Origin: Rhodobacteraceae bacterium REDSEA-S34_B6
GTDB lineage: Bacteria; Pseudomonadota; Alphaproteobacteria; Rhodobacterales; Rhodobacteraceae
Direction: 5' to 3'
Assembly (NCBI GenBank): GCA_001627925.1
Contig: LUQC01000023.1
Location: 1 to 44,421, forward strand
DNA length: 44,421 nucleotides
In this document: positions 18,046 through 30,274 of the stretch, piece by piece
How the letters are laid out: the number at the start of each line of letters is the position of its first letter
Position numbering within the stretch: position 1 is the stretch's first letter
Notes under the pieces: model-generated
Databases searched by the model: none
Seen by the model: the letters and a program-made list of their open reading frames with translations, nothing else
Told to the model about the DNA's origin: nothing
Position numbers and translations under genes: made by a program

Positions 18046-18070
18046 CGATTAAGGCATAAAAACCTAATCG
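18046..18070. terminator. Possible bidirectional hairpin between petC and the DUF3726-like gene
   Basis: CGATTAAGG at 18046-18054 pairs with CCTAATCG at 18063-18070 with one bulged A and an A-rich 8-base loop. It lies between two convergent genes and overlaps the stop of the minus-strand gene. A 12-base perfect palindrome CTACTTAAGTAG at 18026-18037 overlaps the petC stop just before it. No strong T-run follows on either side. Confidence 0.35.
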
Positions 18071-18630
18071 TTATCTGACTGTTCAGAACCTGCACCTAGT
18101 TGTCGGCTCTCCTCCGTAGCGGGTGCGTAAACCAAATTTGACCATGCCTCAATCGCTTTCAATGTTGTTTTGTCTATTGAGATCCTCGTTACTAGGCTTT
18201 GTTTTTTATCTCTACTATCTACTATTTTGCGAAAGTAAATTTCAGTGACTTTCTTTTTAAAATATGAACGATTACCAAAGATTAAGTCACCTTCTAACTT
18301 AAATACTTCGTTTTCTAATGTTATTTCTAGCGGAGGTTTTTTAAAATCTCTATCAATAGATATTAATCCTAAGATTATAAGTGGATCGTAAAACTCACCA
18401 GCAACTTTATCAGATACTTCATAAACCCGAGTGTCGGGTATGGTCAAAATTTGGTTAATCTTGCTATTTTCGGTGTTCAACGCCTCAAGTAGAATATTCG
18501 GTGCTGGGAATTGATTTATTGCTAGTGCGAGGAGAGCATTGGATAAATCTTCACAAACTCCCCAGTGATGTCCTTTTCCTCTTAGGCTTTTTTTACAAAG
18601 TGAAACAAATTCGTTTTTTGATAAATTCAA
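18064..18630 (-). CDS. DUF3726-like protein of unknown function
   Basis: A 188-residue soluble protein with no signal peptide or membrane segment. Its N-terminus, LSKNEFVSLCKKSLRGKGHHWGVCEDLSNALLALA, resembles from memory the start of the uncharacterised DUF3726 family (SLNE...KAARGAG..WG.AEEA), so I assign it tentatively. The middle is rich in beta-strand-type sequence (DTRVYEVSDKVAGEFYDPLIILGL) and the C-terminus is acidic and Gln/Ser-rich, probably disordered. Its ATG overlaps the stop of the 569-residue gene by 4 bases (ATGA), so the two are translationally coupled and very likely act together. The function is not known to me. The family has been seen only as a predicted protein. Confidence 0.6.
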   Translation of the reverse strand: MNLSKNEFVSLCKKSLRGKGHHWGVCEDLSNALLALAINQFPAPNILLEALNTENSKINQILTIPDTRVYEVSDKVAGEFYDPLIILGLISIDRDFKKPPLEITLENEVFKLEGDLIFGNRSYFKKKVTEIYFRKIVDSRDKKQSLVTRISIDKTTLKAIEAWSNLVYAPATEESRQLGAGSEQSDND

Positions 18631-20336
18631 TTTGATTTCTGTTCTGGATATGTCCAGTCATCGCAATTTTCTTCGTTAAGAGTCTCAGGCATTGGGGCGC
18701 CCTTAAACATATTTATTCTTACCCATCTGTCTGATCTTGGATCAAAGTGAAACGCGCCAAAAAATGATAGTTTTGCTCTAAGCAGGTCGATAGGAATGAC
18801 ATCTCTAGAAATCGTATTGTCTTTTATTTCTGCATACGGACTGGTGAAAACTATCTGACACCTGCGTATTATATGACGATGCTCTGGATGCTTCATAAGA
18901 AACTCGGCAATACTTTTGTTGCGCTGCCATTTTAATAGGTCAGCGTACATCTTAGCTACATCACGGCCAGGTTGCAGGGGTTGTTCATAAGACCCTATAC
19001 CATTTTCTTTATAACGGTCCCCAAGGCGCGGTTCGAGTTTCTCTTCAGATATGTACCAGGCAAGTTGATTGTTTTCTGAATTATTCCAATTTATTTTAAG
19101 TGCAAAATCATAATGCTGTTCGGTCTTATTTAGAAAATCGCTAATCAGCATTGAACCGTTAATCTTATTCTTAAATTGATTATTTTCACTCATTTCACTA
19201 CTTAGATTGTCAATTAAGTAACCAAATGGTTCTAATATAATGGATACCAGTAGTTCTTGTGCTTCCTCTCCTAGGGTTTCCTCGGCCCATTTATACAATG
19301 CATCAAAGGGATATGGCCTCTTAAAATTAAACTTTCCTATATGATGATCCAAAGTAATTTTGTCTCGTCTTAATTCATTTAATTTAACAATTTGCAATTC
19401 ATGTTGTGAATGCCAACTCTCAATTAAATAATTGCTCCTTTTTATATAATTTTTAAATAAGTCTACACATTTCTGCTTTGGCGCTTTGAGGCTTCGAATT
19501 CTTGCTAAAGCTGTTTCTTTTGCATTTATCCAGTTGTTTAGGAGTTGTGGATGATTAATTAAAAACGGAGCCATTCCCAGTCCAGTAGAGTTTCCTACTC
19601 CAAGCATTTTGCTAACTCTTGGCTCAAGATTTACAAATTTTGAAGGGTTTTTTATTTTTGCAGCGTGCTGTAATAAATCAACTACAAATGCTCGTATCAT
19701 ATAAACTGTGAGCATCTCTGCCTGAAATGGAGCGGCAAATTCGGAACGATCTGAAATTTCTTTATAATCAATAGCTCCAAATTTTCCAGAACCGTAAACA
19801 GCTGTAGTTCGCATCAGATATCCGACCTTTTCTATTTCCTGAATATCTGGTTGCTTACCTTCAGATAAACAGTCAACAACGTAGTCCCAGAGCCGAACAG
19901 ACTTATTTGCTCTCGATAAAGTAATTTCTTTTTCACTTACCCGACCTGCTTCTTGAACGGGAACGTTATTCCTTAATCGATCGATGTCCATCTTTGATGG
20001 AATACCATCAAAAAGTACAAAAGTAGCATCCCATTTTGTAGCAATTACTCGATCTGAACGATCTTCATCAGAAATTTTATGTGCAAAAGCAACAAGTGAA
20101 TAAGCTCTATTCAGTAATTGGTATGTGTAGACTGCCGTACCAGAACAGTCGACATTTATGTCAAATACGCTTCTCTTAAATACCCATCTTTCGGCCGAGA
20201 TCCGCCTCAAAAGAATTCTAAGAAAAGACAAGCGTGATTGGTGAAAAGAACCCAATCTACTTAGGCGCATCACTTTTTCAGCAGGCCGTAGACCCACTTC
20301 ATAGTCGGAATTATTTTCATCAAAAAGTATCGGCAT
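18627..20336 (-). CDS. Uncharacterised 569-residue protein coupled to the DUF3726-like gene
   Basis: I do not recognise a named domain. The protein is soluble-looking, with no signal peptide and no clear membrane helix. Recognisable local features are an N-terminal basic stretch (RLSRLGSFHQSRLSFLRILLRRISAERW), a Cys/Asp-containing segment (FDINVDCSGTAVYTYQLLNRAYSLVAF), RTTAVYGSGKFG, EMLTVYMIRAFVVDLLQHA, GVGNSTGLGMAPFLINHP, and a C-terminal FGAFHFDPRSDRWVRINMFKG. The ordered, motif-dense sequence argues for a conserved globular, possibly enzymatic, protein rather than a chance frame. It is first in a two-gene minus-strand unit and diverges from the ligase-thiolase pair across a 250-base gap. 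The ATG at 20336 has no obvious Shine-Dalgarno. Function unknown; association with CoA-ester chemistry is inferred only from the neighbours. Confidence 0.75.
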   Translation of the reverse strand: MPILFDENNSDYEVGLRPAEKVMRLSRLGSFHQSRLSFLRILLRRISAERWVFKRSVFDINVDCSGTAVYTYQLLNRAYSLVAFAHKISDEDRSDRVIATKWDATFVLFDGIPSKMDIDRLRNNVPVQEAGRVSEKEITLSRANKSVRLWDYVVDCLSEGKQPDIQEIEKVGYLMRTTAVYGSGKFGAIDYKEISDRSEFAAPFQAEMLTVYMIRAFVVDLLQHAAKIKNPSKFVNLEPRVSKMLGVGNSTGLGMAPFLINHPQLLNNWINAKETALARIRSLKAPKQKCVDLFKNYIKRSNYLIESWHSQHELQIVKLNELRRDKITLDHHIGKFNFKRPYPFDALYKWAEETLGEEAQELLVSIILEPFGYLIDNLSSEMSENNQFKNKINGSMLISDFLNKTEQHYDFALKINWNNSENNQLAWYISEEKLEPRLGDRYKENGIGSYEQPLQPGRDVAKMYADLLKWQRNKSIAEFLMKHPEHRHIIRRCQIVFTSPYAEIKDNTISRDVIPIDLLRAKLSFFGAFHFDPRSDRWVRINMFKGAPMPETLNEENCDDWTYPEQKSN

Positions 20337-20536
20337 AAATCAAGTTTTCACTTATTCCAAATTCTATTTACCTATTATTTTTATTCTAGATAGTGTCGAG
20401 CTTAGTTTGATGTTTATAGTCTTTATTGAGTTGAAAATAAAGTGTAGTGATTATTTTAGCTAAAAGTAATATTTATAGTAGATGAGTTATGTTTTTCCGT
20501 CCAAAAGACGTTTCAATTGAAATAAATGTTAGCCTT

Positions 20537-20563
20537 TTGCTCAGTATTTCACTTGCGTATAAT
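20537..20563 (+). promoter_or_regulatory. Possible promoter for the ligase-thiolase pair
   Basis: A perfect -10 box TATAAT at 20558-20563 lies 23 bases before the ligase ATG. The best -35 candidate is TTGCTC at 20537-20542 with a short 15-base spacer, so the promoter is only half convincing. The remainder of the 250-base divergent gap (20337-20586) is very A+T rich and holds no frame I can support. Confidence 0.4.
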
Positions 20564-20586
20564 AAGAAATAATTTCGAGAAATTGA

Positions 20587-21780
20587 ATGCACCAAAATCT
20601 GTTCAAATGGAGTGATCAGTCATCTTTTATTTCTCCAAGCTCTAAATTAAGAGATAAAGCACATATTGCTAATCAACTTGCACTATTTTTTGAGATACTT
20701 CATTCAGGGAAAACTCCCAGAATAAATTCTGACGGCATCACTTCGCATAAACCAGTAATTGGTGGTGGGTTTCAATCTATATCAGGCGGTTCAACTGGGC
20801 TTCCAAAAATCATAGAACGAACTTGTATTAGTTGGATATTAAGTTTCAATATTAACAATAAATTTTTTAACCTTAGCGGCTGTAAGGTGGCTTTATTCGG
20901 TTCTTTAAATCATAGTTTAGTGCTTTATGGGGCACTAGAGGGCCTTCATTTAGGTTGTGAAGTTCATTATCTAGAAGGTCAAAGTCCAACCAAGCAATTA
21001 GAATATTTGGAGCGTGAAAATATCGAAATACTTTATGTCACGCCTACACAATTAAGGCTCATGTTGACCGCTAAGTATAAGAATTTTCGTATTAAAAGTT
21101 TAAAATATGTATTTATCGGCGGTGGTTCGACAGAACAAAATACACTAATGGAGCTATCAGAACTAGCCCCAAATGCCGCGTTAAAACAATTTTATGGTTC
21201 AAGCGAAACGAGTTTTATTTCCATATCAGATAAATTTACACCTAGGGGTTCAGTTGGTAAGGCCTACAAGGATGTGGAGATAATCCTGGGTGCATCGCCT
21301 AATGAGCCGGTAAAAAAAGGTGAAATTGGTAGGGTCTGGGTTCGTTCGCCTTATTTGTTTTCAAAGTATGTTGGTGAGAATGGTATTAATTCAAACGAAG
21401 TCTCGGGTTGGGTAAGCCCGGGAGAATTGGCAAAATTTGATCAGGATCAAAACCTGTTTATTTTGGGCCGAATTGATCGAATATTTAAAATTAAGGATCA
21501 AAGTATAATACCTGAAGAAATTGAGAGATATTTACTTGCAGAGAAAAATATCAAGATGGCTGTGGTAGTAAAAGAATATGATACTATTAGGGGTAACAAA
21601 GCTATTGCTTACATTGCAACAAGTGGTGCAGTGAATGTAGAAAAGCTCATAGATGAATGTATTTCACTAATTCCACCACTTGATAGCTCATTAAAAATAA
21701 TTGAACTTACCTTGGAAAACTTTCCACTTTTGCCATCAGGAAAACCAGATTTTTGCAAGTTAGAACAGCGGAGCGTGTAA
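20587..21780 (+). CDS. Compact class I adenylate-forming enzyme (acyl-CoA ligase-like)
   Basis: Member of the ANL superfamily, which activates a carboxylic acid as an acyl-AMP and usually transfers it to CoA or a carrier. Core motifs are present: the P-loop SGGSTGLPKIIERT, FYGSSETSFIS, the hinge region GRIDRIFKIKDQSIIPEEIERYL, and the C-terminal catalytic lysine in LPSGKPDF. At 397 residues it is well short of the usual 500-550: only about 65 residues precede the P-loop, so most of the N-terminal subdomain is missing. The ribose-binding motif reads GWVSPGELAKFD, with Glu where TGD normally has Asp. The thiolase-like gene begins 1 base after its stop. The substrate is unknown; neighbouring biotin-uptake genes make a pimelate-like or other acyl substrate conceivable but unproven. 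Confidence 0.82.
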   Translation: MHQNLFKWSDQSSFISPSSKLRDKAHIANQLALFFEILHSGKTPRINSDGITSHKPVIGGGFQSISGGSTGLPKIIERTCISWILSFNINNKFFNLSGCKVALFGSLNHSLVLYGALEGLHLGCEVHYLEGQSPTKQLEYLERENIEILYVTPTQLRLMLTAKYKNFRIKSLKYVFIGGGSTEQNTLMELSELAPNAALKQFYGSSETSFISISDKFTPRGSVGKAYKDVEIILGASPNEPVKKGEIGRVWVRSPYLFSKYVGENGINSNEVSGWVSPGELAKFDQDQNLFILGRIDRIFKIKDQSIIPEEIERYLLAEKNIKMAVVVKEYDTIRGNKAIAYIATSGAVNVEKLIDECISLIPPLDSSLKIIELTLENFPLLPSGKPDFCKLEQRSV

Positions 21781-21781
21781 C

Positions 21782-22885
21782 ATGCAATCTGCCTATATTG
21801 TTGGCGCAAAAAGATCAATTGTATCTCCAATTAATGGGCCCCTTTCCTCATTGAAAATAAATGAATTAGCAGCGCCAGTTATAAATAATCTAATCGAAAC
21901 CAGTGGAATCAAGTTCGATGACGTGGATGAATTAATTGTATCGAATGCTCTTGGAGCTGGAGGTAATCCTGCGAGATCAATCGCTCTTGCAAGTAAATTG
22001 CCAGAAAGAGTTGCTGGTCTTAGCATTGATCGCCAATGTGTAGGGGGTCTCGACGCCATATTGCTTGGTATAAAATTGGTGCAAGCGGGTAGCGTTAATA
22101 TAGTAGTCGCCGGGGGTGTTGAGAGTTTTTCAAATAGGCCCATTCGATTAGCGCAGGAATATGATAAAATATTAGTTCCCTATGATGCTCCTGCATTTAC
22201 ACCAAATTTGTACCAAGAAATTCAGATGGCAGAAGCTGCTTTTAATATTGCAGAGAAATTTGGATTTACACAGATGGATCAAGATATGTTTGCAATTAAT
22301 AGTCATGTAAATGCTCTAAAATCAAAAAAATATCTAATCGATGAGATTGTAAACATAGGTCCGGAAAATACTTTATTTGATCCATATACCAGGAATTTGA
22401 ATCTCAAACTTTGTGAGCGTGCTCCCAAATTATTTGGTTCGATAACCTATGCAAATACAGCAATTTCAGCAGATGCAGCATCCTTCGTAGTGATTTGTAG
22501 AAATATAATTAAGGGTAGAAAAGCCTTAAAGCTAATTTCTGGTGCTACAGTAGGTACAAATCCAAAATTGCCTGGTCTATCTCCCATAACTGCTATTGAA
22601 GAGGTTTTCCAGGCCTCTGGTTTAAGACAAAAAAATATTAATCAGGTTGAAGTAATGGAGGCTTACGCATCACAAGCCATGGCATGTCTATCAGAGTCTG
22701 GTCTTGGGAATGTCAAAACTAATCCAAAAGGGGGGGCTCTCGCCAGAGGGCATCCTATTGGAGCATCAGGTACTATACTAGTTACAAGACTATTTTCTGA
22801 TTTATCGCCGGGAGATTTGGGACTGGCGGCCATAGCTGCGGCGGGGGGTATAGGAAGTGCAGCTATATTTGGTTGTTATGATTAA
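21782..22885 (+). CDS. Thiolase-family protein with altered active site
   Basis: A 367-residue thiolase-fold protein. Thiolases form or cleave 3-ketoacyl-CoA using two cysteines, a His and an Asn-bound water. Here the nucleophile Cys86 (IDRQCVGGLDAI) and His324 (GGALARGHPIGASG) are retained. The NEAF motif reads MEAYA, with Met292 in place of the oxyanion Asn, and the second cysteine of the CxGG motif is replaced by Ala352 (GLAAIAAAGGIGSAA). The enzyme therefore probably does not perform ordinary degradative thiolysis. The protein is shorter than the usual 390 residues. It follows the ligase gene by 1 base, clearly one transcript, and its stop is 1 base from the convergent bioY stop. I assign the fold with confidence and the reaction not at all. 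Confidence 0.85.
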   Translation: MQSAYIVGAKRSIVSPINGPLSSLKINELAAPVINNLIETSGIKFDDVDELIVSNALGAGGNPARSIALASKLPERVAGLSIDRQCVGGLDAILLGIKLVQAGSVNIVVAGGVESFSNRPIRLAQEYDKILVPYDAPAFTPNLYQEIQMAEAAFNIAEKFGFTQMDQDMFAINSHVNALKSKKYLIDEIVNIGPENTLFDPYTRNLNLKLCERAPKLFGSITYANTAISADAASFVVICRNIIKGRKALKLISGATVGTNPKLPGLSPITAIEEVFQASGLRQKNINQVEVMEAYASQAMACLSESGLGNVKTNPKGGALARGHPIGASGTILVTRLFSDLSPGDLGLAAIAAAGGIGSAAIFGCYD

Positions 22886-22886
22886 C

Positions 22887-23432
22887 TTAAATCCGTGACA
22901 AAACATTTTCAGGACGGAGTTTGAATAAGGTGTGGGTGAGCATGGCACAGAGCAAAGCCTTTATACAATCTCCCGGTAAATAAATTAATGCAATTAATGC
23001 AGCTTCGGAAATAGACTTATCCAACATTATAGACATTCCGACTATACCAGGAATATATAATATAAGAATTCCGCCTATAATGGCTCCAAGCAAGGACGAA
23101 TAAAATACATTAATAAGTTTTAATCTAGAGGTAATCCAACCTGCGACAAAGGCCGCCAGTGGGAATCCAACAATAAATCCAACACTCGGACTGGCGAACA
23201 CTCCTAGGCCACCGCGCCCTCCTGATAGTAATGGAAGACCTAATGCGGTGAGTGTTATGAAGAGTAAAACAGCCAAAGCTCCTCTTTTTGCTCCTAAAAC
23301 TGTTCCACATAACATAATCCCCAAACTTTGAGCAGTAATTGGCACTCCTGAAGCAAGCATCACTTTCGGCGCAAGCCCAAGAACTGCAATCAAAGCTGCA
23401 AACAAAGATACCAGAACTATCTTTTTTTCCAT
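22887..23432 (-). CDS. bioY: Biotin ECF transporter substrate-binding protein BioY
   Basis: Membrane S component that binds biotin for an energy-coupling-factor transporter. The 181-residue protein is very hydrophobic with about six transmembrane segments, and carries the BioY signatures PITAQSLGIMLCGTVLGAKRGALAV and GLPLLSGGRGGLGVFASPSVGFIVGFPLAAF. Length and order agree with the family. It is the last gene of the minus-strand bioM-bioN-bioY unit, 9 bases after bioN. Its end is 1 base from the stop of the thiolase-like gene on the other strand. No biotin synthesis genes and no bioR regulator gene lie in the window, so the cell may rely on uptake, or make biotin elsewhere. Confidence 0.95.
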   Translation of the reverse strand: MEKKIVLVSLFAALIAVLGLAPKVMLASGVPITAQSLGIMLCGTVLGAKRGALAVLLFITLTALGLPLLSGGRGGLGVFASPSVGFIVGFPLAAFVAGWITSRLKLINVFYSSLLGAIIGGILILYIPGIVGMSIMLDKSISEAALIALIYLPGDCIKALLCAMLTHTLFKLRPENVLSRI

Positions 23433-23441
23433 GTTGTTAAT

Positions 23442-24044
23442 TTAAACCTTTAAATTTGATCTTGATCGAAGTGACTGTGCGACATGATCCGCGTCGTCCA
23501 TAACGGTTAAAATTAGTGGCAAAATGATTTGCCACGAGGGCCGTTTACCCGATCTGCATTTGTATGCAAGGTGTAAAATTTTATGTCTCTCGAGCACAAT
23601 CGGTGTGAACCGGATAAAAATTATTACGCAAAGTGACACGGCCTGGATATTTATTTTTGTAAATCGTAATGGGCTAAGTATTTTTTCAATAATTTCAGAA
23701 ATCTCACCCATGTTTGTCGAGCATGTGACGATGTTAGCGAGACTGACAATTAATAATAGCCTTAGTATAATTAAAAGCCCCTGCGTTAAGTCGCCCGTAA
23801 ATAGATGCCAAAATGCTATAATTGCGACAAAGGGTAATAAGGGATTTAAAAGCCCCAAGCTAAATTTTAGAATTTGCCATCCGAATAGAAATTGAAATGA
23901 AATTGTTGCCACAAATAAAAGAAACATAATTTTAGTTGAGTCTATGAAAAAAATTCCACTAGTTGCTATAGCTAGAAGTGCCATTTTTAGACTGGCTGGT
24001 ATTTTCTCTAACCAAGTTTGCTGAGGATAACGAAGAGCTAACAT
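23442..24044 (-). CDS. bioN: ECF transporter transmembrane component BioN (EcfT)
   Basis: The T component that joins the ATPase to the biotin-binding S component. The 200-residue protein has several hydrophobic helices followed by the long cytoplasmic coupling helices. Two Arg-containing coupling motifs are present in the C-terminal half, around HLAYKCRSGKRPSW and VAQSLRSRSN, corresponding to the family ARG/ARS motifs that contact the ATPase. The start codon overlaps the bioM stop as TAATG, so translation is coupled. It sits between bioM and bioY, which fixes its substrate class as biotin by context. Confidence 0.9.
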   Translation of the reverse strand: MLALRYPQQTWLEKIPASLKMALLAIATSGIFFIDSTKIMFLLFVATISFQFLFGWQILKFSLGLLNPLLPFVAIIAFWHLFTGDLTQGLLIILRLLLIVSLANIVTCSTNMGEISEIIEKILSPLRFTKINIQAVSLCVIIFIRFTPIVLERHKILHLAYKCRSGKRPSWQIILPLILTVMDDADHVAQSLRSRSNLKV

Positions 24045-24733
24045 TATAGACTTAAATGTTTATGCATATGCTTGGAATATTCTGGTAATACTGACTTGGG
24101 TGGTCCATCTAGAAACATCTTTCCATTATCTAACCAAATGATGCGTTCACAGCTTTGAAGACTCGGCAAGTCATGAGTTATGTGTATCACCATCTGGGGT
24201 AAGTCTTTTATATAGATATCTAATGCTTTTTTCGTTGGTAAATCTAATCCTGAGAAAACCTCATCTAAAATTATAATAGCTGGATCCATTGCAAAAACGC
24301 TCATTATACATAAGAGCTGTCTTTGCCCTTGAGATAATGTTGCTGTGGACAATCCAATCCAGCTAGATTTATTGAATTTTTGTAGAGTTTCGTCAGTTCT
24401 CTTTTTTATTTCTGATTTTGAATACCCCAAATTTTTCAGTCCAAATCCAATTTCATCCTCAACTGTTCCAAAAATTATTTGATGGTCAGGATTTTGAAAT
24501 ACTATTCCAATATTCAAACTGGGATGGTTTCCAGTAATTTTGTTAGTATGTACTTCGAGCTCACCTTTACTTGGCTCAATCAATCCACATAAAATTTTTG
24601 CTAATGTGGATTTCCCTGAACCATTTCTTCCTATAATGCCAATTGATTTCTCATCCAACGTAAATTTTAGGTTTTCTAGGATAACTTTTCCGAAAGCAGT
24701 GTAGGAGATTTCGTTTAAAACAAGTTTAGGCAT
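24044..24733 (-). CDS. bioM: ECF transporter ATPase BioM (CbiO-type)
   Basis: ATP-binding cassette protein powering biotin uptake. It contains Walker A GRNGSGKST, the Q-loop in GIVFQNPDHQIIFG (typical of ECF ATPases), the signature LSQGQRQ, Walker B AIIILDEVFSGLD and the switch His in VIHITHDLPS. The open frame extends to a TTG at 24766, but the cassette normally starts shortly before the first strand, so I chose the ATG at 24733 (MPKLVLNEISYTAFG), giving 229 residues. Its end overlaps bioN. The upstream L,D-transpeptidase gene on the same strand ends 39 bases before it. Confidence 0.93.
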   Translation of the reverse strand: MPKLVLNEISYTAFGKVILENLKFTLDEKSIGIIGRNGSGKSTLAKILCGLIEPSKGELEVHTNKITGNHPSLNIGIVFQNPDHQIIFGTVEDEIGFGLKNLGYSKSEIKKRTDETLQKFNKSSWIGLSTATLSQGQRQLLCIMSVFAMDPAIIILDEVFSGLDLPTKKALDIYIKDLPQMVIHITHDLPSLQSCERIIWLDNGKMFLDGPPKSVLPEYSKHMHKHLSL

Positions 24734-24772
24734 AATCAATCGGTTGCCCTTTTTCAGTTTTATCAATGTACT

Positions 24773-25363
24773 TTAAATAAGTAGTACCTGGGTTCCTACT
24801 TTGGTTAAACTGAATAATTCGTTAATATGTTCGTTATATAATCCAATGCAACCATTGGAAGATCTGCGTCCAATTTTTCGAGTATCATGTGTGCCGTGAA
24901 TTCGGTAATATTGCCAGCTCAAATACAGAGCATGAGTGCCCAGTGGGTTGTCTGGGCCAGGTGGCATAAATTCTGGCCAATCGGGGTTTCTTTCAAGCAT
25001 AGATGGTGTAGGCCGCCAGCTTGGACCTTCAACTTTTTTGATAACTTTGGTACGGCCGCGACGGGTCAATTCGTCTGACATTGGCACACTAGATGGATAT
25101 AGATTGTAAATATCCGCATCTTCTGACCAAAAATGTAACGCTCTTGAAGTCATATCTACGAGGATTGCACCATTCTTCAAATTGCTAAAGTAAGGTCGCC
25201 AATCTAGTGCACGGAAACTTGAGAGATTGTGGCGTTGAGATTTTGTAATTTCTTGCTCAATTTCAGTAGTGTCTTCAGAATTAACATTTGATTGTGACCA
25301 AACGGGAGTACTCACAGAGGCAAATGACGCCATTACAAAAGATCTTCTTGACCAAATTCCCAT
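24773..25363 (-). CDS. L,D-transpeptidase (YkuD/ErfK type), exported
   Basis: Periplasmic enzyme of the YkuD family, which forms 3-3 peptidoglycan cross-links or attaches proteins to meso-diaminopimelate. The 196-residue protein opens MGIWSRRSFVMASFASVSTPVWSQ, a signal peptide with twin Arg that could be Tat- or Sec-type. A low-complexity linker follows, then the catalytic domain with YRIHGTHDTRKIGRRSSNGCIGLYNEHI. This contains the His and the nucleophile Cys. The usual SHGCIR motif reads SNGCIG, so the position after Ile lacks the common Arg. GGGAAT precedes the ATG. It diverges from the CAP lipoprotein gene across a 147-base gap. Confidence 0.88.
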   Translation of the reverse strand: MGIWSRRSFVMASFASVSTPVWSQSNVNSEDTTEIEQEITKSQRHNLSSFRALDWRPYFSNLKNGAILVDMTSRALHFWSEDADIYNLYPSSVPMSDELTRRGRTKVIKKVEGPSWRPTPSMLERNPDWPEFMPPGPDNPLGTHALYLSWQYYRIHGTHDTRKIGRRSSNGCIGLYNEHINELFSLTKVGTQVLLI

Positions 25364-25510: not shown

Positions 25511-26044
25511 ATGTTTAATATTAGGTGGCTCTTAGTTTTTTCGATACTTTGGTTATCAGGCTGCAACGCGTTGGGGTCTCCAAAACTGGGTCCAGATGGA
25601 AAACCTCTGCCGAAAATATACAAATTAAATAGACAAAATGTTGCCGAAGTTAAATTCCGGATGTTAGACGCAGTAAACGCCCTTAGAGTTGCCAAAGGTA
25701 TTCAGGTTTTAGAATTCAATTCAGAATTAAACGCGGCTGCAGCTACGCATGCCCGGGATATGTCCATACAAAATCGACCTTGGCATTTTGGTTCAGATGG
25801 CTCATCTCCTTTAGATAGAGTAGCCCGAGTGGGATATGAAAAGGTCTTTTTAGGCGAAACAATTTCAGAAACTTACGAAAGCGAGATTACAACATTAACA
25901 GCATGGATTAATAGTGAAAATACGAGAGATGTTATACTTGATCCTAGAGCAAACGAATTAGGATTTGCGTGGTATCAAGAGCGCAATGGGAAAATCTGGT
26001 GGACTATGATCCTTGGTGGGAAATCACTATCTATGGTTCAATAA
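25511..26044 (+). CDS. CAP/SCP-domain lipoprotein
   Basis: A 177-residue predicted lipoprotein: the start MFNIRWLLVFSILWLSGCNALG holds a signal peptide ending in the lipobox LSGC. The remainder is a bacterial CAP (SCP/YkwD-like) domain, with the pattern LDAVNALRVAKGIQVLEFNSELNAAAATHARDMS and HFGSDGSSPLDRVARVGY, then GETISE and LGFAWYQ near the end. CAP proteins are extracytoplasmic with unsettled functions. The longer open frame starts at a non-ATG codon at 25481; the ATG at 25511 places the lipobox correctly. The 3' end overlaps the convergent second L,D-transpeptidase gene by 14 bases, so it sits between two cell-wall enzymes. Confidence 0.85.
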   Translation: MFNIRWLLVFSILWLSGCNALGSPKLGPDGKPLPKIYKLNRQNVAEVKFRMLDAVNALRVAKGIQVLEFNSELNAAAATHARDMSIQNRPWHFGSDGSSPLDRVARVGYEKVFLGETISETYESEITTLTAWINSENTRDVILDPRANELGFAWYQERNGKIWWTMILGGKSLSMVQ

Positions 26045-26519
26045 AAATTGGCGTACCAATTTTTACTAAGTTATAAATTTCGCGAATTTCTTTATTGCTC
26101 ACTGCAATACATCCAGCTGTCCAATCTTTTTGAAACCAGCGGAAAGGTTTATCTGTACCGTGTATAAAAATATCGCCGCCTGGGAGTTTGCCCTTTAACT
26201 TTGCAAACTGTTGATCTTTTTGGTTTGGGTAAGAGATTCCAACAGATAGATGATATTTGCTGTTAGCGTTCTTCCTATCAATTTTGTAAGCTCCCTCAGG
26301 AGTCTTGCCATCGCCCTCAAAATTTTTGTGGCCCTTTGGGGCGAAGCCTAGATCTACCTTATACGACTTAATCACTTCGTTACCGCTAAATAAATATAGT
26401 TTTCTCTTACTTTTCTTTACGACAATTTCAGTTACTTCGCGCGATTTAGTTGCTGAAAGTACAGAGCTAGTGGTTAAAATCCAACCAATGCCGGAGAAAA
26501 TAAAGTCTCTTTTTAACAA
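26031..26519 (-). CDS. L,D-transpeptidase-family protein, exported
   Basis: Second YkuD-type protein, 162 residues. It starts at a TTG at 26519 with AGGGG 7-8 bases upstream, giving MLKRDFIFSGIGWILTTSSVLS, a short signal peptide. The catalytic domain follows with GDGKTPEGAYKID, GGDIFIHGTDKPF and the cysteine motif WTAGCIAVSNKEI, then GTPIFIEP. The His and Cys are present but the motif is TAGCIA rather than SHGCIR, a variant seen in a distinct subgroup of the family. It is convergent and overlapping with the CAP lipoprotein gene. It is downstream of the ABC exporters on the same strand, after an 84-base gap in which I see nothing clear. Confidence 0.87.
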   Translation of the reverse strand: MLKRDFIFSGIGWILTTSSVLSATKSREVTEIVVKKSKRKLYLFSGNEVIKSYKVDLGFAPKGHKNFEGDGKTPEGAYKIDRKNANSKYHLSVGISYPNQKDQQFAKLKGKLPGGDIFIHGTDKPFRWFQKDWTAGCIAVSNKEIREIYNLVKIGTPIFIEP

Positions 26520-26603: not shown

Positions 26604-28442
26604 TCAAACTGCCATCTGGTCAATGCCGATAAAACCACCTGCTTGTTGCTCCCAATACTTTGAGTATAATCCCCCGTTCTTTAGTAACTCGCGATGTGTC
26701 CCCTGTTCCAGTATTCTCCCCTCATGTAGTAGAATAATTCTATCCATTTTTACAATGGTAGATAGACGGTGAGCTATTGCAAATACAGTTTTGTCACGCA
26801 TTACATAATCTAGAGCGAGTTGAATTTTAGCTTCGGTATCGCTATCCAGAGCACTAGTAGCCTCATCTAAAATTAATATTGGAGCTTTTTTCAGGATTGC
26901 GCGCGCTAAAGCAATTCTCTGACGTTGACCGCCCGAAAGCTTCACACCTCGTTCTCCAAGGTATGCGTCAAAACCCCTACGGCCTTGATTGTCAGTAAGA
27001 TCCATTATGAATGGATATGCTTGAGCCTTCTGTGCTGCGTCAATAACATCATCATAGGATGCAATAGGATTGCCATATAATATATTTTCATAAGCAGACC
27101 TGTTGAACATAGATGCATCCTGCGCTACCACTGATATCTTACTTCTGAGGCTGTCCTGGGACACTTGCGATATGTCTTGGTCCGATATTAAAATTCGTCC
27201 ACCTTCTGGATCATAAAATCTTAATACCAGATTGACTAATGTAGATTTTCCTGCACCTGATGCTCCGACTAAGCCAATTCTTTCCCCCGCAGAAACATCA
27301 AGTGAAAGGTCGTTTATCCCTCCAATTTCTTGCCCATATTTAAAATGTAAATTTTCAATTTTAATTCTTGGCTCTGCAATTTTTAATTTTTTCGCAGCCT
27401 TTTGATCTATAAGGGTATATCTTGGCGTAAGCGTTTTGATACCATCCTCAATTTCACCTATCTGAGCATAAATATTCATCAGAGTGAAACTTACCCAGCC
27501 CGTCATTTGTGCGAGTCGCAGAGCGACAGCTCCAGCGATTGTGACCTCGCCGACTGTGGCAAGGTTATTGACCCAAGAGAGCAACGACAAACCGATGAGA
27601 CCTACTGGTATTAAACCAGCTAGCGTCAAAAGCACGATACGAAACTCTAGCATAGTTTTTTGTCTATCAATGGAACGGCTAAGGTATTTATCCATTGCCA
27701 AAACTGCAGCATCGTTTTCATGGGAAATATGGGCGAATTGCTTCACCGTTTTTATGTTGCTAATGGTGTCTATAATTTGGCCAGATACCATCGCCTTTGA
27801 ATCTGCATAAGACTTTGACTTTCGTCTTATCCTCGGCATGTATATTTTAATAAGTGCAATATAAGTTATTAACCAGACTGCTACAAATGCCGTGCTCTTT
27901 AAATCAAAAGAACCGACAATTACCATTGCAGCAATTACCGATGCCAAAGCATAGACACCTGTTTGTAAAAAATCTGTAATTAATGTCGATAAAGAATTGG
28001 CAGTTTGCAGTTGTTTCTGGGCTATCCTGCCGGCAAAATCGTTATCGAAAAAACTTACCGATTGGCCAAGGGTCCATTTATGAAGTCTAAGAAGCGTCAT
28101 ATTAAGTATTTTTGGGCCCAGAACTGCTTGAAAAAGTGCACTTAGACAAAAGCTTAATGGCCTAAAAAATAGAAAAATTAATACACAAAAAAATAAAAGA
28201 AGTTTATTTATATTGAAAAAAAAGGTGCGATCATCAACGACTTGTGCTGCATCTACTACCCACCCAAGTGCAATAGTAGTTATCATCTCAAAAGATCCGG
28301 CTAAAGTGCTTGCCGCTGCACCAAGAAATATGAATTTCCAAGTCCCACCACAAGACCAAAGTATAAACTTCCAAAGTTCTTGCGGCGGCGGAGATTCACT
28401 TTCTTTCTTGTAGTCAATCTTATTGGATAACCAATTAATCAT
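26604..28442 (-). CDS. ABC exporter half-transporter (second of pair)
   Basis: Fused membrane and ATP-binding protein of the type IV (MsbA-like) exporter class, 612 residues. Six hydrophobic helices lie in about 40-330, including LSLLSWVNNLATVGEVTIAGAVALRLA. The ATPase domain has Walker A GLVGASGAGKSTLVNLVLRFYD, the signature LSGGQRQRIALARAIL, Walker B APILILDEATSALDSDT and the switch His in IAHRLST. All catalytic residues look intact. The open frame begins upstream at 28484, but the ATG at 28442 overlaps the preceding stop (ATGA) and gives the expected N-terminus MINWLSNKIDY. It probably pairs with the upstream half-transporter. The substrate is unknown. Confidence 0.93.
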   Translation of the reverse strand: MINWLSNKIDYKKESESPPPQELWKFILWSCGGTWKFIFLGAAASTLAGSFEMITTIALGWVVDAAQVVDDRTFFFNINKLLLFFCVLIFLFFRPLSFCLSALFQAVLGPKILNMTLLRLHKWTLGQSVSFFDNDFAGRIAQKQLQTANSLSTLITDFLQTGVYALASVIAAMVIVGSFDLKSTAFVAVWLITYIALIKIYMPRIRRKSKSYADSKAMVSGQIIDTISNIKTVKQFAHISHENDAAVLAMDKYLSRSIDRQKTMLEFRIVLLTLAGLIPVGLIGLSLLSWVNNLATVGEVTIAGAVALRLAQMTGWVSFTLMNIYAQIGEIEDGIKTLTPRYTLIDQKAAKKLKIAEPRIKIENLHFKYGQEIGGINDLSLDVSAGERIGLVGASGAGKSTLVNLVLRFYDPEGGRILISDQDISQVSQDSLRSKISVVAQDASMFNRSAYENILYGNPIASYDDVIDAAQKAQAYPFIMDLTDNQGRRGFDAYLGERGVKLSGGQRQRIALARAILKKAPILILDEATSALDSDTEAKIQLALDYVMRDKTVFAIAHRLSTIVKMDRIILLHEGRILEQGTHRELLKNGGLYSKYWEQQAGGFIGIDQMAV

Positions 28443-30274
28443 TTCACAGTCGTTTGTATGAAACCACCAGACTGCTGTGCCCACAATTTGGCATACAGAC
28501 CGTTATTTGCTAATAGGTCAGTGTGAGAGCCATCCTCGATAATGCGTCCATTATTCATAACAAGTATCCGATCCATATTAACAATTGTTGAAAGCCGATG
28601 TGCTATTGCGATCACAGTTTTCCCCTCCATCAAATACGAAAAAGTTTCTTTAATAGCAGCTTCTATATCGCTATCTAGCGCACTTGTGGCTTCGTCCATA
28701 AGCAAAATTGGCGCATCCTTTAAAATGACACGAGCGAGTGCAATTCGTTGCCTTTGGCCTCCGGATAATTTAACCCCACGCTCACCAACTTTAGAGGAGT
28801 AGCCTTGATTGCCATCAGTATCTCTTAAGTTAATGATAAATTCGTGGGCGCGTGCTTTTTTCGCAGCATTAATAATTTCTTCCTCTGTCGCATCTGGCTT
28901 TCCATAGCTTATATTTTCTCTAATACTTCGATGTAAAAGGCTACTGTCTTGCTGTATTGTTCCAATATGATGCCTCAGACTTTCCTGCTTTATGAGTGAA
29001 ATGTTTTGGTCATCTATTAGTATTTTTCCCTTTTCGACATCATAGAAACGCAAAAGCAACTTAAAAAGAGTTGACTTGCCGGCCCCTGAGGGTCCAACTA
29101 AACCGACTTTCTGGCCGGCAGGAATTTTTATATTTAGATTATCAAGACCACCAAAGTCTTTACCGTAATGATGATATAGATTTTGGACTTCTATTTTTGC
29201 ATGACCTAGGTTCAGCTGGTCAGCTTTTTCATGGTCAACTAGTTCAACTTTTTCGGTTATCGTCTCTAGCCCTTCTCGGATAACACCCAATTCGCGGAAG
29301 AAAGTAGAAGCAGCCCACATTATCCATCCGGACATTGCGCTTATTCGTAGTACTAAAGTGGCTGCGGCTGCTACTACACCCACTGACGTTTGGCCTGAAT
29401 ACCAAAGCCATATGGCCCAACCTATTGTTCCAGCGGTCAAAATACCATTTAAAAAGGAGAGTGAAATATCCATTATAGAATATAGTCTCAATTCTTTTAT
29501 AATGGTATTTCGGGTGTCTGTGATAGCTTCTCTGGCATATTCGAGTTCTTTTTGTTCGTTAGAGAATAATTTTACAGATTGGATATTTGTGTAGGCGTCT
29601 ACAATATAACCGTTTAAATTTGATCGAGCATCTGCAGCAGCCTGTGAGGCTGGTTGAATGCGCTTTACCACAAAAACTATCAAATATCCGTATGAAAACA
29701 TCCAAAGTAAAAGTGGAATAATGAGTTCCATTTCTGCGTTTAATAGTAAAAACAATGCTCCCACCAGGTAAGCGATAATATAGCTAAACGCATCAAAAAC
29801 ATGGTAAATTACTTCACCGGCTGACCGAGGGGTCTGCATGACTCTGTTGGCAATCCGACCGGCAAAGTCGTTTTCAAACCACCCAACCGACTGGCGCATA
29901 ACCTGCCTGTGACCTCTCCAACGAAATAATGTCGCTATATTTGGCATTAGCGAATTGTTATTAAGTAGAACGGTTATTGATGCAATTAACGGCATTCCAA
30001 TTCCAGCTAGGATTAGGAAAAAAGCAATAAAGAGACCATTGTCTAAAATTTCTTGTCTCGATCCGGTCTGCATCAGGTCAACAATTTGACCTATGCCATA
30101 AATTAGTAGAAGTTCAATTGTTGCCAGTAAAAAGGCAAAGAACGCGGTTACTCCAAAAAGAAAATAAAAAGGTTTAGTATAATCCCTTAAGAAACTCGAA
30201 ATTTCTCTGGGAGGAGTGTCCGTCTCCTCATATTGACAGAATGGGTCTACAAGGCTCTCAAAAAATTTAAACAT
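28439..30274 (-). CDS. ABC exporter half-transporter (first of pair)
   Basis: A 611-residue exporter half-transporter with six membrane helices in about 30-330 and a canonical ATPase: Walker A GLVGPSGAGKSTLFKLLLRFYD, signature LSGGQRQRIALARVIL, Walker B ILLMDEATSALDSDI, switch IAHRLST. The membrane part carries SVGWFENDFAGRIANRVMQTPRSAGEV, paralogous to SVSFFDNDFAGRIAQKQLQTANS in the next gene, so the two arose by duplication and likely form a heterodimer. Both ATP sites appear competent, unlike many heterodimeric exporters with one degenerate site. It follows cca by 53 bases on the same strand. Lipid, peptide or drug export cannot be distinguished from the sequence. Confidence 0.93.
   Translation of the reverse strand: MFKFFESLVDPFCQYEETDTPPREISSFLRDYTKPFYFLFGVTAFFAFLLATIELLLIYGIGQIVDLMQTGSRQEILDNGLFIAFFLILAGIGMPLIASITVLLNNNSLMPNIATLFRWRGHRQVMRQSVGWFENDFAGRIANRVMQTPRSAGEVIYHVFDAFSYIIAYLVGALFLLLNAEMELIIPLLLWMFSYGYLIVFVVKRIQPASQAAADARSNLNGYIVDAYTNIQSVKLFSNEQKELEYAREAITDTRNTIIKELRLYSIMDISLSFLNGILTAGTIGWAIWLWYSGQTSVGVVAAAATLVLRISAMSGWIMWAASTFFRELGVIREGLETITEKVELVDHEKADQLNLGHAKIEVQNLYHHYGKDFGGLDNLNIKIPAGQKVGLVGPSGAGKSTLFKLLLRFYDVEKGKILIDDQNISLIKQESLRHHIGTIQQDSSLLHRSIRENISYGKPDATEEEIINAAKKARAHEFIINLRDTDGNQGYSSKVGERGVKLSGGQRQRIALARVILKDAPILLMDEATSALDSDIEAAIKETFSYLMEGKTVIAIAHRLSTIVNMDRILVMNNGRIIEDGSHTDLLANNGLYAKLWAQQSGGFIQTTVK

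Follow-up and report, generated by a model that had tools for sequence, protein, structure and literature searches.

The window, by which we mean the whole stretch of 44,421 nucleotides from Rhodobacteraceae bacterium REDSEA-S34_B6 (contig LUQC01000023.1, assembly GCA_001627925.1), carries a gene pair for a compact ligase and an altered thiolase, located end to end with the genes of a biotin transporter of the energy-coupling factor (ECF) type. The first gene of the pair (LIG; 20587..21780, plus strand) encodes an AMP-forming acyl-CoA ligase of 397 residues matching PF00501 (E=5e-24) and PRK07638, and the second one (THIO; 21782..22885, plus strand) a thiolase-fold protein of 367 residues matching PF00108, PF02803, and PRK06690. 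A single base separates LIG from THIO, and another single base separates THIO from the convergent gene of BioY, the substrate-binding subunit of the transporter (22887..23432, minus strand; PF02632, E=8e-34, 117 bits). BioY is accompanied by BioN, a CbiQ-like ECF transmembrane (T) subunit (23442..24044, minus strand; PF02361, 33 bits), and by the ECF ATPase BioM (24044..24733, minus strand; PF00005; TIGR04520 at 177 bits, under its cut-off of 315), whose end at 24733 assumes an ATG start, with a TTG at 24766 opening the same frame. On the other side of LIG, a divergent gap of exactly 250 bases (20337..20586) leads to a separate module of two minus-strand genes sharing four overlapping bases: that of a 569-residue protein (18627..20336), for which the Pfam search returned no family at E<=1, and that of its partner, a DUF3726 protein (18064..18630; PF12525, E=5e-8, 33 bits against a cut-off of 22). 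These genes and spacings, including the coupled minus-strand genes, the 250-base gap, the 1-base spacer between ligase and thiolase, and the abutting bioMNY, had been described in a first-pass annotation of the window and are all borne out by the coordinates of the open reading frames. The interpretation given there stands in part: the ligase-thiolase unit and its recurrent tie to a biotin transporter are supported, whereas a system of four genes, including the 569-residue and DUF3726 proteins, and a supply of pimeloyl precursors are not.

PRK07638 and PRK06690 are the best specific NCBIfam models for the two proteins, and both score under the cut-offs (173 bits against 518, from profile position 151, for LIG, and 213 against 498 for THIO), so that the window proteins are to be considered divergent relatives and are not filed as equivalogs. 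The PF00501 match of LIG likewise begins only at profile position 170 of 384. In the window's family, whose named relatives are Rhodobacterales, with up to nine candidates scored per genome, the ligase was found in at least 32 of 198 genomes, and strongly in at least 30. The thiolase adjoins the ligase in all 30 of the family ligase loci, window included, and the two therefore form a real unit. Around them, 31 wide loci were read, namely those of two weak ligase genomes (G126 and G100) and of the 29 strong ones that remain when the window's is set aside, with BioY and nitroreductase counted by tblastn. BioY is present in 28 of these loci, in 27 of them within 6 kb of the thiolase, and in 23 of the 28 LIG and THIO converge on BioY, BioN, and BioM in the same arrangement as in the window. 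BioY itself is found in 174 of the 198 family genomes, including all 30 strong ligase genomes. Of the family's 30 best-scoring BioY loci, 11 have BioM nearby and five of these carry the pair; the other 19 lack BioM, and none of them has the pair within the 1.5 kb read on either side. At L125 and L292 a thiolase adjoins BioMNY, canonical where aligned and with no ligase beside it. Other neighbours of the pair were judged without systematic annotation; among the loci with the pair and no nearby BioY, inspection by eye revealed no recurring extra gene except a nitroreductase. An aroQ-like gene (type II 3-dehydroquinate dehydratase) lies just upstream of the ligase in L300, where it is annotated, and in L040 and L047, where it was recognized by eye, and seven wide loci have a conserved gene of 146-174 residues close to their ligase.

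The tie to the transporter, proposed in the first-pass annotation from the window, recurs in distant groups. Among loci of named genomes, represented by the best 80 of at least 569 relatives, at least 13 thiolases adjoin a ligase homologue and at least 11 of these are near BioMNY, with Afipia, Ancylobacter, and two betaproteobacterial records included. A class-wide search of 289 genomes, with up to six candidates scored in each, gave at least seven matches at E<=1e-100; besides the window and G055, already counted, the ligase is present in five of five and BioMNY in four of five. Plasmids carry the pair as well: the thiolase was found in 27 plasmid records and the ligase in 23, the genus counts agreeing save for four Azospirillum records with the thiolase only. 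In the 11 regions examined from the 27 thiolase-bearing records, ligase and BioY are always present, and a nitroreductase-family gene in ten. A Salipiger plasmid has six co-directional genes in the order LIG-THIO-BioM-BioN-BioY-nitroreductase, with overlaps of four bases at three of the five junctions, an overlap of 26 bases at one, and a gap of 69 bases at the remaining one, in P. aminovorans the order is BioM-BioN-BioY-LIG-THIO, and further plasmid regions have the convergent form. The plasmids of P. yeei and P. alcaliphilus, with BioY-LIG-THIO and no bioN or bioM annotated beside them, count against a strict tie to BioM and BioN. Such a variable order and orientation with a constant content points to function rather than to inherited synteny. 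In the plasmids L301, L305, and L308 the cassette lies a few kilobases from repABC-type replication genes.

The nitroreductase-family protein, of about 225 residues and with PF00881 in both examples checked, is encoded between or beside LIG-THIO and BioY. Its gene lies near the pair in 10 of the 31 wide loci, four of the 13 named, three of the five class-wide, and 10 of the 11 from plasmids (among them L298-L305, L307, and L308, as well as L033, L037, L041, L046, L048, L050, L051, L055, L056, and L058), and it accompanies LIG-THIO in L127 and L288, where no BioY is nearby. By tblastn it was detected in none of the 16 Bacillus-type loci described below, nor near the window's pair.

More distant relatives of the pair were found in the family to which G205, the genome behind record L184, belongs and whose members are called here Bacillus-type. 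Spo0A scores over its cut-off in all 16 of these genomes used, and in one of 14 controls, nine of which, including Bacillus subtilis, match at all. Of 61 genomes of this family, 15 exceed the PRK06690 cut-off; among the controls, B. subtilis and Deinobacterium gave matches to this model, and one of these two exceeds it as well. These 15 loci and the sub-threshold L232 all adjoin a ligase homologue, and BioY is adjacent in 14 of the 16 in the order BioY-LIG-THIO, the exceptions being L256 and L261, which ends at a contig end; no match to BioN was obtained by tblastn in these loci, which likewise speaks against a strict tie to BioM and BioN. In L256 the ligase frame stops about 90 residues past the P-loop and no BioY appears in the stretch read, so that it may be a decaying copy. 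L184 is titled Pseudomonas sp. ISL-84, and its genome has a BioY-LIG-THIO operon of the Bacillus type, above the PRK07638 and PRK06690 cut-offs, together with Spo0A, and the record name looks wrong.

We infer from model names, gene order, and the match of the B. subtilis control that PRK07638 and PRK06690 correspond to YhfT and YhfS. According to passages of PMC6391492, PMC7235819, PMC11089781, and PMC6323116, BirA represses bioY and yhfS-yhfT in Staphylococcus aureus and B. subtilis, and the functions of the pair in this Gram-positive biotin regulon are only putative. The window's genes resemble this system in having an AMP-forming ligase beside a thiolase-family protein and BioY, and in having those two models as the best specific ones for their products. 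They differ in the full BioMNY transporter in convergent orientation, in the nitroreductase often found with the window's relatives, and in the mode of control, since BirA regulation is not expected in the window's class. The best explanation is that the window's pair represents a divergent proteobacterial form of the YhfT/YhfS-type, BioY-linked pair. The listings and passages returned by a literature search, to which Rodionov 2002, Hebbeln 2007, and Rodionov and Gelfand 2006 did not belong, contain no description of the pair for Proteobacteria.

The thiolase is where the chemistry of the pair appears to have changed. Canonical thiolases are characterized by a catalytic cysteine and the motifs NEAF, GHP, and CxG, with Cys378 acting as the base and the enolate held in an oxyanion hole made by Asn316 and His348 (passages of PMC3406046). 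According to alignments to solved thiolases, from which all residue equivalences were read, the window thiolase keeps the nucleophilic Cys86 and the GHP histidine, His324, whereas Met292 replaces Asn316 and Ala352 replaces Cys378 (Zoogloea ramigera numbering for the lost residues); NEAF thus reads MEAY, and the cysteine of CxG is an alanine. The modelled protein nevertheless has the fold of acetyl-CoA acetyltransferases and 3-ketoacyl-CoA thiolases of the Z. ramigera type (TM-score of about 0.9 by query length), with 24-31% identity among the 50 fold matches listed.

These substitutions separate the linked thiolases from the unlinked ones. The linked set, which excludes the window, holds 76 sequences (31 wide, 13 named, five class-wide, 11 plasmid, and 16 Bacillus-type), or 72 at 90% identity, with L128, L301, and L308 being near-copies of L056. 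In the joint alignment, where L037 is unreliable at two positions, all 76 keep the nucleophilic cysteine and the GHP histidine, and the Cys378 equivalent is missing, with Ala, Pro, or Gly instead, in all 75 that are reliably aligned at this position, those of the Bacillus type included. Contrary to them, it is kept in all 80 aligned unlinked thiolases, that is, in 66 of 67 named ones, the other (L189) running off the alignment, and in all 14 Bacillus-type ones, around which only 1.5 kb was read; one of the 81 unlinked thiolases, L195, lies about 4 kb from a weak ligase match. The loss of Asn316 is less general: Met stands at its position in 28 of the 31 wide (L037 being unreliable here), 11 of 13 named, four of five class-wide, and 11 of 11 plasmid linked thiolases, and His in two betaproteobacterial ones, whereas Asn is maintained in L062, L063, L291, and all 16 Bacillus-type linked thiolases, as it is in all 67 named and 14 Bacillus-type unlinked thiolases.

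The phylogenetic tree agrees with this division. A branch with 100/100 support parts 57 linked from 23 unlinked thiolases, the latter being 21 of the 81 (16 named and five Bacillus-type) plus L214 and L292, in a tree that is unrooted and whose bootstrap had not quite settled. One clade, also with 100/100 support, is made up of 38 proteobacterial rows, none of which has Asn316. The window thiolase is placed among the PRK06690 members and not within the canonical clade as sampled.

The ligase is altered in its length rather than in its motifs. Only 65 residues precede the P-loop in the window ligase, short of the usual N-terminal length of ANL enzymes, compared with 148-176 residues in 14 ligases of the Bacillus type, where the count runs to the most distant start. 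In-frame stops cap the N-terminal room at 52-142 residues in 26 of 30 measured wide loci, with L047, L060, L062, and L063 as exceptions, and the room is no greater in seven of 12 measured named ligases; the shortening is thus real in most of the family. The motif set of ANL ligases comprises the P-loop, YGxxE, a GR motif, and a C-terminal catalytic lysine; the window ligase has SGGSTGLPK, YGSSET, GRIDR, and PSGKPD, and the lysine is invariant across 27 aligned rows. The A7 position, an Asp in ANL ligases, reads Glu in the window. Hence, both labels that had been given to the proteins are correct, "compact" applying to most and "altered" to all of the linked relatives measured.

With regard to biotin synthesis, the BioB search gave no match in the window genome, which is 95.5% complete, and BioB was found in 26 of the 198 family genomes. 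It is present in three of the 30 strong ligase genomes versus 23 of the 168 others (Fisher p=0.77), so that 27 of the 30, window included, have no match. As all 30 have BioY, the pair tracks the import of biotin and not its synthesis, and its occurrence mostly in family genomes without a BioB match detaches it from the synthetic pathway and directs the question to uptake and vitamers. The BioF profile scores homologues in all 30 ligase genomes, none of them over its cut-off; however, one sub-threshold match, in G178, adjoins BioB, and the BioF cut-off is therefore not a fair test. Among genomes without BioY, BioB is commoner (10 of the 20 listed, of 24 in total, versus 26 of 198 overall), as if import and synthesis could interchange.

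Passages of PMC5343134 state that alpha- and betaproteobacterial BirA proteins have no DNA-binding domain and that BioR controls bioYMN in Rhizobiales and Rhodobacterales. BirA control is consequently not expected for the window's pair. The sequences upstream of LIG and BioM match what we take to be the consensus of the BioR operator with one to five mismatches at best; the single match with one mismatch (L049) is equalled by 16% of shuffles, and three plasmid loci have none with zero or one. The joint regulation across the 250-base gap that had been suggested was thus left without signal from the sole motif tried. A GntR gene beside the Thioclava cassette was considered as a candidate for BioR, and its best model is CsiR, below cut-off, so that it was not identified as such.

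Taken together, we consider it about evenly balanced that the pair is a divergent, proteobacterial YhfT-YhfS-like pair working as an optional accessory of biotin importers, where it would activate an acid, a biotin vitamer perhaps, and transfer the acyl group by non-Claisen chemistry. In this mechanism, the ligase would convert a carboxylic acid into an acyl-AMP and then an acyl-CoA, from which the thiolase-fold protein would accept the acyl group on Cys86. Since only the half of the chemistry forming the acyl-cysteine is kept, the acyl group probably goes elsewhere than to acetyl-CoA: without normal enolate formation and protonation, the protein would hand it to another acceptor. PMC3406046 cites a study whose title states that changing Cys378 to Ser alters the partitioning of the acyl-enzyme, which fits acyl transfer. 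From the loss of Cys378 in every reliably aligned linked thiolase a concrete prediction can be made, namely that the protein transfers acyl groups but is inactive as a thiolase. Less certainly, the acid might be a biotin vitamer or a biotin-like acid imported by BioY, a guess made because the tie is to a biotin-binding transporter and not to biotin synthesis; the pair could then salvage or convert a form of the vitamin in biotin-short cells. How desthiobiotin enters is unknown, according to a passage of PMC9561691. In many lineages, the nitroreductase-family flavoprotein may add a reduction step. More tentatively still, and we would not expect it to be the case, LIG-THIO with or without the nitroreductase might constitute an undescribed, plasmid-spread vitamin-salvage module, through which organisms not making biotin would import a derivative or breakdown product via BioMNY, the stripped-down ligase would activate it, and the thiolase fold, with its base and oxyanion-hole residues gone, would have exchanged Claisen chemistry for simple acyl transfer.

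Several observations weigh against the accessory role in acyl transfer. BioY is far commoner than the pair (174 family genomes against only about 30), and the transporter is thus independent of it; conversely, the pair occurs without BioY in the stretch read at seven loci (L053, L054, L059, L127, L137, L288, and L256). Neither window protein attains its NCBIfam cut-off, their family membership coming from the tree and the context, and the equation with YhfT and YhfS comes from names, gene order, and the B. subtilis control. The BioR scan found no shared regulatory site. The residue losses could also mean a degenerate enzyme, even though the rest of the thiolase stays conserved. Finally, the idea of a vitamer comes from linkage alone and is a guess, the substrate, the acceptor, and the activity being all putative.

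The main rival to this accessory role is a fatty-acid salvage under biotin shortage, where, with acetyl-CoA carboxylase limited by biotin, the ligase would activate fatty acids that are taken up from outside or recycled, and THIO would move the acyl group to the acyl carrier protein or another carrier, sparing malonyl-CoA. This would suit the names of the models, acyl-CoA synthetase for PRK07638 and acetyl-CoA C-acyltransferase for PRK06690, as well as the occurrence of the pair both with and without BioB. Repression of the Gram-positive pair by BirA at plentiful biotin, described in passages of PMC6391492 and PMC7235819, is also what a biotin-sparing function needs. However, fatty-acid salvage leaves unexplained the tie to BioY across many lineages and plasmids, a tie that is often convergent, as in the 23 of 28 wide loci mentioned above, and hence does not serve co-transcription, and among the genes that recur nearby, which were not systematically annotated, none for fatty-acid metabolism was noticed. 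We regard it as possible, with perhaps one chance in a few.

The two remaining metabolic alternatives both call on residues that the linked thiolases have lost. The first-pass annotation had suggested a pimeloyl role, in which the ligase would make a dicarboxylyl-CoA and the thiolase extend it. Ligase and thiolase chemistry could in principle yield pimeloyl-CoA, and BioB is present in 15 of the 16 pair-bearing genomes of the Bacillus type. BioZ, BioW, and BioI are pimelate routes of biotin metabolism, which the pair would resemble in its putative acyl-activation or condensing chemistry, and from which it differs in occurring where no BioB was found. There, as in the window genome and most of the family's ligase genomes, pimeloyl could not become biotin by the known route, and the pair shows no association with BioB; together with the loss of the residues for Claisen chemistry, this leads us to reject pimeloyl supply for genomes without BioB and to consider it quite improbable overall. 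Biotin catabolism, with formation of biotinyl-CoA followed by beta-oxidation of the side chain, would explain why ligase and thiolase resemble both ends of beta-oxidation. Yet repression of the Gram-positive pair by biotin has the wrong sign for it (passages of PMC6391492 and PMC7235819), the thiolytic residues are lost, and neither a dehydrogenase nor a hydratase was noticed as a recurring neighbour, judged without systematic annotation, so that this alternative is very improbable.

A different kind of alternative would join the 569-residue and DUF3726 proteins to the ligase and thiolase in one system of four genes around the shared divergent gap. In its favour, the arrangement is identical in L049, from the sole other genome of the same genus searched. 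Outside this genus, however, the genes are not neighbours, and the first-pass annotation itself had held a single system to be unlikely if they did not co-occur in other genomes: the 569-residue gene lies within 6 kb of the thiolase in one of 31 wide loci, and in none of the 13 named, five class-wide, 11 plasmid, and 16 Bacillus-type ones. It is present in 91 of the 198 family genomes, independently of the ligase (16 of 30 strong ligase genomes versus 75 of 168 others, Fisher p=0.43), and has conserved neighbours of its own. A DUF3726-like frame is directly downstream in all 31 loci considered (the window, L049, and the 29 next-best), and an M19 dipeptidase family gene is near in all 18 wide loci L262-L279. 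Aldehyde dehydrogenase, LysR, BCCT, and Ldh_2 families recur less, in numbers that antisense frames may inflate; each of these families, M19 included, was confirmed by Pfam in one example. The window copy has no M19 neighbour; in its genome, part of an M19 gene is found at the edge of a contig. The four-gene system is therefore rejected, and we give it hardly any chance; the 569-residue and DUF3726 proteins are instead a widespread, highly conserved, and independent pair, outside the ligase-thiolase system. The larger protein has a mean column identity of 71% over 19 sequences. The structure prediction of this protein, which had been proposed in the first-pass annotation, gave a mean pLDDT of 80 and no fold match in the PDB at E<=0.001; the best sequence match in the PDB has only E=0.08, and a literature search on DUF3726 found no paper.

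Beyond the transporter genes, two L,D-transpeptidase (YkuD)-like genes are located near bioM, at 24773-25363 (assigned by Pfam) and 26031-26519 (by eye), and homologues of the first one, with 71-78% identity, adjoin BioMNY in L034, L036, L043, and L049. They are followed at 26604-30274, on the minus strand, by two tandem ABC exporter-like genes encoding proteins of 626 and 611 residues, judged by eye from their translations.

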